Positions 61,517 to 63,005 of a DNA stretch of 64,000 bases are shown in pieces (position 1 is the stretch's first letter; each line of letters begins with the position of its first letter). The notes under the pieces are model-generated. The model saw only the letters and a list, made by a program, of their open reading frames with translations, searched no databases and was not told the origin of the DNA. The stretch covers positions 992,001 through 1,056,000 of the forward strand of contig CANLUL010000001.1 in the NCBI GenBank assembly GCA_947494305.1. Direction: 5' to 3'. The stretch comes from an uncultured Sphingomonadaceae bacterium. Its GTDB lineage: Bacteria > Pseudomonadota > Alphaproteobacteria > Sphingomonadales > Sphingomonadaceae. The position numbers and the translations under genes were made by a program.

Positions 61517-61552
61517 ATGCCAATCCGATTAACAACCCATCGTGATGATATC
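61517..61552 (+). pseudogene. Relic copy of the first 12 codons of the DUF808 gene
   Basis: These 36 bases match 62061-62096, the start of the DUF808 gene, at 27 positions with no gap, from the ATG on. Read in frame they give MPIRLTTHRDDI against MPTGLVALLDDV. Most differences change amino acids, as expected for a copy freed from coding constraint. It has no ribosome binding site and runs directly into the repeat at 61557. Confidence 0.5.
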
Positions 61553-61556
61553 TCCG

Positions 61557-61655
61557 CCTCCTCGGTCATTGCGAGCGTAGCGAAGCAATCCAGGGCGTCG
61601 CTTGGTCTCTCTGGATTGCCGCGTCGCCTTCGGCTTCTCGCAATGACGGAGGTGG
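61557..61655. repeat. Compound palindrome A, left of the GIY-YIG gene
   Basis: Outer arms GTCATTGCGAG (61565-61575) and CTCGCAATGAC (61637-61647) are perfect complements. Inner arms CAATCCAG (61586-61593) and CTGGATTG (61611-61618) are too, with a 17-base loop. Imperfect pairing extends to both ends. The left half is 27 of 29 identical to that of repeat B, in the same orientation. It resembles a dispersed intergenic palindrome seen in many alphaproteobacteria. Confidence 0.85.
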
Positions 61656-61666
61656 GGAGGTCGTGA

Positions 61667-61957
61667 ATGATGCAGCCTGCGGTTTATATTATGGCGAACA
61701 AACGGAATGAGACGCTTTATACTGGTGTGACCTCCAACCTTCCTGCACGGGTTTGGCAGCATCGGGAGGGAGTAGCCGATGGATACACGAAACGGCATGG
61801 TTGCAAGATGCTTGTCTGGTATGAAATGCACGAAACAATGGAGTCGGCAATTTTGCGGGAAAAACAGATCAAGGCTGGATCACGGAAAAAGAAGTTGGCA
61901 CTGATTGAAGAGAATAACCCGCAGTGGGAGGATTTGTTTAGTGACATCGTACAATAA
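61667..61957 (+). CDS. GIY-YIG domain nuclease-like protein
   Basis: 96 residues, a stand-alone GIY-YIG domain. The signature is VYIMANKRNETLYTGVT (about 6-22), in which Y7 and Y18 are the paired tyrosines. R28 in LPARVWQH and a glutamate in MESAILREKQIK (about 58-69) complete the usual active site. Homologues of this small class are often annotated as endonucleases, and their true role is unknown. Its GGGGAGG site comes just past repeat A, 6 bases before ATG 61667 (a second ATG follows at once). Its TAA ends one base before repeat B. Confidence 0.9.
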   Translation: MMQPAVYIMANKRNETLYTGVTSNLPARVWQHREGVADGYTKRHGCKMLVWYEMHETMESAILREKQIKAGSRKKKLALIEENNPQWEDLFSDIVQ

Positions 61958-62042
61958 CGTCATTGCGAGCGTAGCGCGGCAATCCAGAGCGGTACACGCA
62001 GACGCTCTGGATTGCCGCGTCGCTGCGCTCCTCGCAATGACG
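61958..62042. repeat. Compound palindrome B, right of the GIY-YIG gene
   Basis: Outer arms CGTCATTGCGAG (61958-61969) and CTCGCAATGACG (62031-62042), inner arms CGGCAATCCAGAGC (61977-61990) and GCTCTGGATTGCCG (62004-62017), all perfect, with a 13-base loop. The right half has six more bases between inner and outer arms than the left, the same asymmetry as in repeat A, so both copies point the same way. Confidence 0.9.
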
Positions 62043-62060: not shown

Positions 62061-63005
62061 ATGCCAACCGGATTAGTAGCCCTTCTCGATGATGTCGCAG
62101 CGATAGCGAAAGTCGCGGCTGCGTCTGTGGACGATATCGGTGCCGCCGCCGCGCGGGCTGGTGCCAAGTCCGCCGGTGTGGTGATTGATGACGCCGCGGT
62201 GACACCGACCTATGTCACGGGCTTCCACCCGTCCCGCGAGCTTCCGATGATCTGGAATATCGCCAAGGGGTCGATCAAGAACAAGCTGCTCTTCTTGCTG
62301 CCCGCTGCGGTGTTGCTGGGGCAGTTTGCACCGTTTCTGATCCCGTTCATCCTGATCATTGGCGGACTGTTCCTCTGTTATGAAGCGGCGGAGAAGGTGC
62401 TGGAATGGCTCCATATTGACGAGAGTACCAAGCATGACGAACCCGCAATACTCGAGGGCGAGGGGCGCGAGGAGGAGATGACCGCCGGTGCGATCCGCAC
62501 CGATTTCATCCTGTCCACCGAAATCATGGCCATCGCCCTGTCCGAAGTCACCGAGGAAGTCTGGTGGCAACAGGGGATCATTCTCGCGCTGATCGGCGTG
62601 GTTATTACGGTCGTGGTCTATGGCGCGGTGGCGATTATCGTGAAAATGGACGATGTCGGACTGCATCTTGCGACCGAGAAAGAGGGCGCACTGGCGTCGT
62701 TCGGGCGTGGTTTGGTGAATTTCATGCCGAAACTACTGACTGCGATTTCGATTATCGGTACGCTGGCGATGGCCTGGGTTGGCGGTGGTTTGCTGGTCCA
62801 CAATATCGCAGCGGTGGGCTGGCATGGGCCAGAGCATCTGATCGATATTATCTCGCATCCGCTGGTCGGACTGTTCCCCGAAGGCGGGCAAACATTTGCC
62901 AGCGGGATCAGCTTTGCGGTGCTTTCCGGAATCATGGGCGTCGCCATCGGCGCGGTTATCGCACCGCTGGTGCACAAAGTCTTTCCTCATGGAGAAGCAC
63001 ATTGA
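62061..63005 (+). CDS. DUF808 family (YedI-like) membrane protein
   Basis: 314 residues. It opens with LVALLDDVAAIAKVAAASVD and AGVVIDDAAVTPTYVTGF, the DUF808 signature, followed by about six membrane segments. The function of the family is unknown. G+C is clearly higher than in neighbours (42 of 60 bases at 62101-62160 against 26 of 60 at 59641-59700), which suggests acquisition from a relative with higher G+C. Its first 36 bases exist in a second, decayed copy on the far side of the GIY-YIG unit. GAGGGA lies 10 bases before the ATG. Confidence 0.9.
   Translation: MPTGLVALLDDVAAIAKVAAASVDDIGAAAARAGAKSAGVVIDDAAVTPTYVTGFHPSRELPMIWNIAKGSIKNKLLFLLPAAVLLGQFAPFLIPFILIIGGLFLCYEAAEKVLEWLHIDESTKHDEPAILEGEGREEEMTAGAIRTDFILSTEIMAIALSEVTEEVWWQQGIILALIGVVITVVVYGAVAIIVKMDDVGLHLATEKEGALASFGRGLVNFMPKLLTAISIIGTLAMAWVGGGLLVHNIAAVGWHGPEHLIDIISHPLVGLFPEGGQTFASGISFAVLSGIMGVAIGAVIAPLVHKVFPHGEAH

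Follow-up and report, generated by a model that had tools for sequence, protein, structure and literature searches.

Among the closest described counterparts of the locus reported here is the REPtron, in which a RAYT (TnpA-REP) gene is tied to its own REPs. According to the passages on these systems in PMC8049555 and PMC8266576, RAYT is a HUH/Y1 tyrosine transposase, its REPs carry the tag GTAG and are dispersed as inverted doublets (REPINs), the gene is kept vertically, and the enzyme is specific for its REPs. As reported in PMC8049555, REPINs are more numerous in those E. coli genomes that have RAYT, and none of 300 genomes has fewer than 69. Another group of repeats, the CGTC REP superfamily, was surveyed in 2013 (Di Nocera, De Gregorio, Rocco 2013, PMC3733652). 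In the main text of that survey, these REPs are defined by a terminal unpaired tag (CGTC or TGTC), a stem of 8-9 bp and a loop of 4-5; they are mainly alphaproteobacterial and also occur in Neisseria, where they include dRS3, and in other phyla. The survey states that they are not associated with transposase genes and concludes that a dedicated transposase is lacking; the mobilising enzyme, if any, was left open, and the term GIY-YIG does not occur in the main text (PMC3733652). Outside preprints and most subscription journals, none of the publications listed by full-text search, as judged by titles, opening lines of abstracts and selected passages, connects GIY-YIG genes with REPs, RAYTs, REPINs, dRS3 or CGTC repeats. 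For Moraxella, a RayT gene and a GIY-YIG gene are listed side by side among clade-specific genes, and no link between them is drawn in the part of the paper concerned (PMC9465073).

The locus lies in a stretch of 64,000 nucleotides from an uncultured Sphingomonadaceae bacterium, referred to here as the window (Table 1). Its left doublet consists of the REP GTCATTGCGAG..GCAATCCAG, a short spacer and the inverted REP CTGGATTGC..CTCGCAATGAC. An earlier note on this DNA had described two palindromes in the same orientation, with left halves identical at 27 of 29 positions, and between them a complete 96-residue GIY-YIG gene and little else. Both descriptions were confirmed: the first 29 bases of the two doublets show 2 differences, the left palindrome measures 99 nt with its outer arms, and the ORF fills 291 of the 311 bases separating the doublet cores. 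The compound palindromes of that note are present where it placed them; what it missed is that each of them consists of paired REPs of the kind that the 2013 survey named CGTC (PMC3733652). With up to one mismatch, GTCATTGCGAG occurs five times in the window against 1.56 expected, a count reached in 1 of 100 shuffles, and all four exact copies are at this locus; therefore, the palindromes are not a product of chance.

Table 1. Features of the locus, in positions of the window.
Feature	Position	Strand	Remarks
Left REP doublet (REPIN-like) core, GTC..GAC	61565..61647	+	83 nt; 99 nt with outer inverted arms (61557-61655)
Right REP doublet core	61959..62041	+	83 nt; same orientation as left doublet
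GIY-YIG nuclease gene, ATG start, 96 aa	61667..61957	+	Pfam PF01541, residue conservation, predicted structure, fold match
Codons of residues 66-77 (KQIKAGSRKKKL), the patch covarying with palindrome type	61862..61897	+	Candidate REP-specificity determinant
Decayed copy of the DUF808 gene start (41 bases, 62061-62101)	61517..61557	+	30/41 identical

The four REP units of the window begin with CGTC in three cases and with GGTC in one. Like the CGTC REPs, as characterised in the main text of the survey, the repeats described here have a CGTC/TGTC tag, AT at the first two stem positions, a CCA tail, mostly paired units and an alphaproteobacterial centre of distribution; AT, the CCA tail and the pairing were all found in the window units. 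The stem is different: instead of the 8-9 bp given in PMC3733652, the window units have five perfect pairs (ATTGC/GCAAT) and an irregular inner part. Because this stem is short and irregular, the window type is best called CGTC-like and may be an uncatalogued variant. The palindromes of many other GIY-YIG lineages have longer perfect stems. Records of N. aromaticivorans, A. lipoferum and S. meliloti, which the survey names as hosts of CGTC REPs (PMC3733652), were examined here and have the gene between palindromes. In comparison with the REPtron (PMC8049555, PMC8266576, in the passages cited above), the enzyme gene is likewise flanked by its own REPs and the REPs are likewise dispersed as doublets, whereas the enzyme is a GIY-YIG protein and not a Y1 transposase, and the tag is GTC and not GTAG. 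The specificity of enzyme for REP, supported here by covariation, and the vertical maintenance of the gene would be further parallels. The pairing would be new in joining REPs, much as in a REPtron, to an enzyme unrelated to RAYT.

The duplicate of the DUF808 start lies directly left of the left doublet and aligns with a score of 19, the top of 500 shuffles being 15; it is possibly the scar of an insertion, and nothing else resembling a target-site duplication was seen at this slot. In another genome of the genus (G007, locus L226), the DUF808 start appears by eye to be duplicated too, running into REP sequence.

Fourteen exact copies of GTCATTGCGAG were found in the 3.35-Mb window genome. By reading of the matches, these would fall into five full doublets, a further doublet of which one arm has decayed, and three stray matches; the GIY-YIG gene is flanked by two of the full doublets. 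No match to the Y1 transposase family (PF01797) was obtained in the window genome, by which a hidden RAYT was ruled out, nor in six of the eight genomes with the window-type gene. The window genome has two further small GIY-YIG genes, and one GIY-YIG domain in a 667-residue frame that, judged by its length, is taken to be UvrC. One of the small genes (L013) has a copy of a different palindrome, GTGCTCCGGGCGAAGACCCGGAGCCC, on each side. In the other (L014, G000 C1:215820-216095), the conserved Glu is replaced by Ala and the flanks have no shared word. This gene alone suggested that gene integrity is tied to flanking REPs, an idea that was dropped, since over 240 loci no relation was seen between active-site integrity and flanking palindromes (palindromes at 167/225 intact and 12/15 broken genes).

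The window gene belongs to the GIY-YIG nuclease superfamily according to Pfam, active-site residues and fold. The protein matches PF01541 with an E-value of 1.6e-15 and 57.6 bits (cut-off 22.6). It has Y7, Y18, R28, H32, E65 and N84, residues with a catalytic role in the GIY-YIG family; each of these six positions is kept in 236 to 239 of 240 proteins. The AlphaFold2 model has a mean pLDDT of 95.4, and the nearest solved folds are UPF0213 BH0048, Slx1 and the UvrC N-domain. In the predicted structure, residues 66-75 form the end of the helix that bears E65 and the turn into the next helix. UPF0213-like proteins (PDB 1ZG2) have a small single-domain GIY-YIG fold as the window protein does, and they constitute a different subfamily. 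Their C-terminus, of the kind GWSRAKKEAL in the weak matches described below, is absent from the window protein, which reads AGSRKKKLALIE.

A protein search (E 1e-6) gave matches in 64 of 98 genomes, the window's included, with up to 7 per genome. From the longer list of loci, 92 were examined, three of them in the window genome; those skipped were in part near contig ends or lower-ranked. Among the first 30, the eight with at least 66% identity (five genera, two families, window included) carry TCATTGCGA on both sides. The other 22 have no such site within the stretch read, and at 17 of them another word of 14 or more bases, mostly palindromic, is common to the 400-base flanks. The earlier note had proposed counting how often repeats lie beside the gene relative to controls, and they proved far commoner at this gene family: an exact word of at least 14 bases was common to both 200-base flanks at 68/92 loci but at 2/244 control ORFs and 5/613 random segments drawn from the same loci and contigs. 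When bacterial genomes were scanned with the window's clade, in part through the motif REKQ(I/V)KAG, 557 loci were confirmed; at the best 80 of these, GTCATTGCGAG (up to one mismatch, within 200 bases) was present on both flanks in 70, on one in 7 and on none in 3. For control segments, the figures were 5/1318 for both flanks and 38/1318 for at least one, as against 77/80. These 80 named loci are mostly alphaproteobacterial, and some are labelled Pseudomonas, Nitrosomonas, Nitrospinaceae and others.

The association extends across the phylum. An even draw of 249 Pseudomonadota genomes had protein matches in 66. Among the matches listed, with repeat hits of the window's genome and of G045 left out, 68 full-length ones (at least 114 bits) and 20 weak ones (at most 60.4 bits) were examined, the latter group being presumably UPF0213-like. 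A common flank word of 14 or more bases was found at 44 of the 68 full-length matches and in 10/605 control segments; 24 of the 68, as well as 24 of the 92 loci above, had none. The palindromes of different lineages differ in sequence and share one build, GT(C/G), hairpin, (T)CC. Units of this build stood on both flanks at 104/240 loci, as counted with a relaxed detector (a strict version found none in the window's own clade), compared with 1/1411 control segments and 0/20 UPF0213-like genes; at least one flank had a unit in 110/1411 control segments. The nearest unit was mostly forward upstream and inverted downstream, with many exceptions where full doublets were present. Thus, the pairing, which the earlier note had seen at a single locus, is present there and characterises a whole family with many palindrome types. 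That the association of gene and palindromes is real we hold to be practically certain. Chance or general palindrome density as its source was ruled out by the same-contig controls.

Records with the gene from a plasmid collection (9 of 33) were read by eye. Palindromes stand on both sides of the gene in Neisseria gonorrhoeae, Aeromonas, Azospirillum, Rhizobium, Novosphingobium, Sinorhizobium and the cyanobacterium Planktothrix. In Spirosoma (Bacteroidota), a doublet lies upstream and a different small palindrome downstream, and the Photobacterium record has no palindrome near the gene. The N. gonorrhoeae record (NZ_CP119140.1, L361) is labelled a plasmid and, at 2.17 Mb, has the size of a chromosome. 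At three other loci (L305, L304 and L267), the two flanks carry identical repeats of 71, 69 and 95 bases, respectively, the length of which suggests recent movement or gene conversion.

The relationship between palindrome type and protein sequence was then considered. For the 175 of 240 loci with a detected unit, the distances between palindrome arms correlated with those between proteins with a Mantel r of 0.61; without the motif-selected set (105 genes), r was 0.32, and 0 of 999 permutations reached either value. A protein tree from which residues 66-77 had been omitted requires 30 changes of palindrome class among 89 genes, and the minimum in 200 shuffles was 54. Paralogs in the same genome had a common arm in 4/52 pairs and nearest homologs in other genomes in 39/105, a comparison unmatched for distance (mean protein distance 0.46 versus 0.25); nearest homologs at a distance of at least 0.3 had a common arm in just 5/46. 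Because same-genome paralogs so rarely share an arm, the palindrome tracks the gene lineage more than the genome.

Within the protein, the residues most informative on palindrome class were S72, G71, K66, A70 and K75, with L17 and M9 close behind (56 of 72 dereplicated genes, in classes of 3 or more). As a predictor, the C-terminal part did not robustly surpass the N-terminal part: the partial r of 0.24 versus 0.18 was reversed (0.15 versus 0.19) at 72 dereplicated genes. In two sets fetched by similarity to the window protein or alignment A1, not by palindromes, GTCATTGCGAG was on both flanks at 12/12 loci of AGSR/GGSR proteins, which are mostly kin, and at 2/148 loci of other proteins; the two exceptions (L244, L259) look by eye like one-mismatch neighbours of another stem. 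The 80 named loci cannot test the patch motif fairly, since they were found partly through the motif given above; the 11 among them without GSR had GTCATTGCGAG on both flanks in 7 cases (with AGNR, ASSR or AGSP instead), on one flank in 1 and on none in 3.

Several proteins combine patch and backbone differently. The Pseudomonas proteins L177, L188 and L195 are nearest to the AGSR clade outside the patch, yet their patch is KKWNRxWK, and GTCATCCCCGCG-type units are found on both sides of L177 and L188 and downstream only at L195. L203, likewise nearest to the AGSR clade outside the patch, has the patch LYTRKKK, GTCATCATGAGG-type palindromes close by on both sides and one GTCATTGTGAG-like site farther downstream. 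L104 has a distant backbone, yet it has the AGSR patch and GTCATTGCGAA-type palindromes, its class having been set by hand from the flanks and its place in the tree being unsure owing to a long branch. From these sequences, three lineages seem to have switched patch and palindrome together, a count that is approximate, given the poor resolution of 80-column trees. Joint inheritance of a gene and its flanks would be enough to yield covariation of protein and palindrome and accounts for part of that observed; it is only the joint switches and the tree test without residues 66-77 that argue for more than this. The nuclease-repeat partnership proposed in the earlier note is thus upheld in respect of flank association and of covariation between palindrome type and protein; cutting or spreading of the repeat by the enzyme is what we infer.

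Taken as a whole, the gene and its two palindromes are best explained as one copy of a REP-plus-nuclease system, to which we give a probability of about 0.58. Since the palindrome sequence changes along with a few enzyme residues, the partner that had been missing for these repeats is probably the GIY-YIG enzyme. Each lineage of the subfamily would be specialised for a single REP sequence, built of a GTC tag, a hairpin and a TCC tail, and its gene often has this REP on either side, as an inverted pair or in full doublets. The nuclease would recognise its own REP through the patch at residues 66-77, beside the conserved Glu; on the strength of the covariation, recognition of its own REP is probable. 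It would most likely nick or cut the extruded or single-stranded REP, or a REP-like target, and repair or replication after the cut could then copy doublets to new places. That the nuclease mobilises the REP at all has roughly an even chance, with both the cutting and the copying that it would lead to being conjectural steps. Occasional recombination between flanking doublets may remove the gene and leave a solo doublet, as the states of the slot described below suggest. The enzyme would thus be the functional counterpart of the RAYT transposases of GTAG REPs, though unrelated to them.

The history of the slot bears on this. The DUF808 gene next to it was matched in 31 of 32 genomes of the genus, and 30 loci were read. 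A comparison of orthologous loci, also proposed in the earlier note, brought out full, solo-doublet and empty states: 4 loci hold the gene framed by two doublets, 3 have a solo doublet and no gene, 1 has a decayed solo doublet, 9 show an empty gap of 16 bases, and 13 contain other inserts. On the DUF808 tree, which covers 29 of the 30 loci, these states are intermingled. In G010, the sister of the window genome on this tree, the slot is an empty gap, and no GTCATTGCGAG..GCAATCC half-site was found anywhere in the genome. The carboxyltransferase gene on the other side of the slot also precedes the nuclease gene in G045 and G058, of two other genera, but not in G033 and G061. Probably, the gene has long been at this slot and was repeatedly lost; the alternative is repeated insertion of the gene there. 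Because one slot is kept in several genera, the gene itself appears to move rarely. Between the carboxyltransferase and DUF808 genes, the slot (L208-L237) is an insertion hot spot in the genus, the 13 other inserts giving gaps of 272-759 bases, and REP pieces lie inside one of them (L226). Elsewhere, a solo doublet before glmS was present in the window genome and in G021 only, of the 29 readable loci among 30 (L355 was unreadable); by eye, this doublet, the sole one compared, showed no clear target-site duplication.

Free-standing GIY-YIG homing genes are known, and they share with the window gene a stand-alone GIY-YIG gene and a patchy distribution. The gene could be a selfish unit that uses REPs as docking sites and is copied into a cut REP by double-strand-break repair, the REPs spreading by other means. 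We regard this as unlikely. It would explain why the gene sits precisely between REPs and why matches are distributed patchily with up to 7 per genome, and the solo doublets found there in related species may represent sites that are unoccupied; the full, solo and empty states fit homing, and they fit loss by recombination too. However, among the loci examined, the window-type gene occupies one locus in each of eight genomes despite the 11 to 119 half-sites that these genomes carry, its maintenance at one slot in several genera gives little sign of homing into many REPs, and in the six genomes devoid of a Y1 transposase match there is none to account for the spread of the REPs. No homing GIY-YIG endonuclease is known to us to be accompanied by a family of dispersed palindromes that corresponds to a patch of the protein.

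The REP-plus-nuclease reading also has to accommodate repeats in genomes where the gene was not matched. At least one half-site was found in 26 of the other 90 genomes, in which part of the GIY-YIG loci were examined, and some had many. The 34 genomes without a protein match had GTCATTGCGAG half-sites in 7 and CTGAAC-type units in 7, and the 64 with a match in 27 and 45, respectively. The earlier note had held that the partnership would fail if repeat-rich genomes lacked the gene altogether and had never had it; it survives this in part only, since 7 of the 34 match-free genomes (E 1e-6) still carry up to 35 GTCATTGCGAG half-sites, which fits loss of the gene and its original absence alike. 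Repeats can therefore outlast the gene or occur without it, which resembles the REPIN counts of E. coli genomes with and without RAYT as presented in PMC8049555.

Less likely than homing is a role in host maintenance, in which a structure-selective nuclease would act on REP hairpins and cruciforms, removing or resolving them, and its gene would lie near REPs for regulation, not for their spread. A fold near Slx1 and UvrC and the conserved position and active-site residues agree with this, but a general enzyme need not switch its patch together with the palindrome, nor need it be without a match in 34 of 98 genomes. Both this explanation and homing share the step of REP recognition with the REP-plus-nuclease system and diverge from it afterwards.

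The idea that the gene is a bystander, a dispensable gene in mobile intergenic slots at which REPs gather, with covariation due to shared descent and no functional link, is disfavoured and very improbable: the slot is indeed a hot spot with other inserts in 13/30 genus loci, and gene and flanks are inherited together, but same-contig control ORFs and segments seldom show the flank symmetry, and patch and palindrome change jointly on backbones that group elsewhere.

If the 96-residue nuclease is the partner within a REP-plus-nuclease system, this would answer which enzyme mobilises CGTC-type REPs and would give a function to a large family annotated merely as "GIY-YIG nuclease family protein"; REP systems would have arisen at least twice, with unrelated enzymes. 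It is an evenly balanced proposition that these are a second, independent class of bacterial REP replicators, which would employ a single-domain GIY-YIG enzyme instead of HUH, with a patch beside the catalytic Glu reading the hairpin, patch and hairpin changing together, and doublets arising as non-autonomous offspring by cut-and-repair. To our knowledge, no transposon uses such a copying route. The natural switches of protein and palindrome offer a putative recognition code. If the patch reads the REP, each protein should cut its own REP in preference to others, and GTCATTGCGA should be preferred by L104 even though its backbone is distant; if recognition is through residues 66-77, these should contact the REP stem.

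A different flank repeat, CTTCGACAAGCTCAGG-like in several cases, was observed at nine UPF0213-like genes (L311, L313, L314, L317, L320, L322, L324, L325 and L330). Overall, 9/20 genes of this group had a common flank word of 14 or more bases, compared with 10/605 control segments. UPF0213-like genes and their own repeat may be a second nuclease-palindrome pairing, and the principle of a GIY-YIG replicator may extend to these proteins with a different palindrome.
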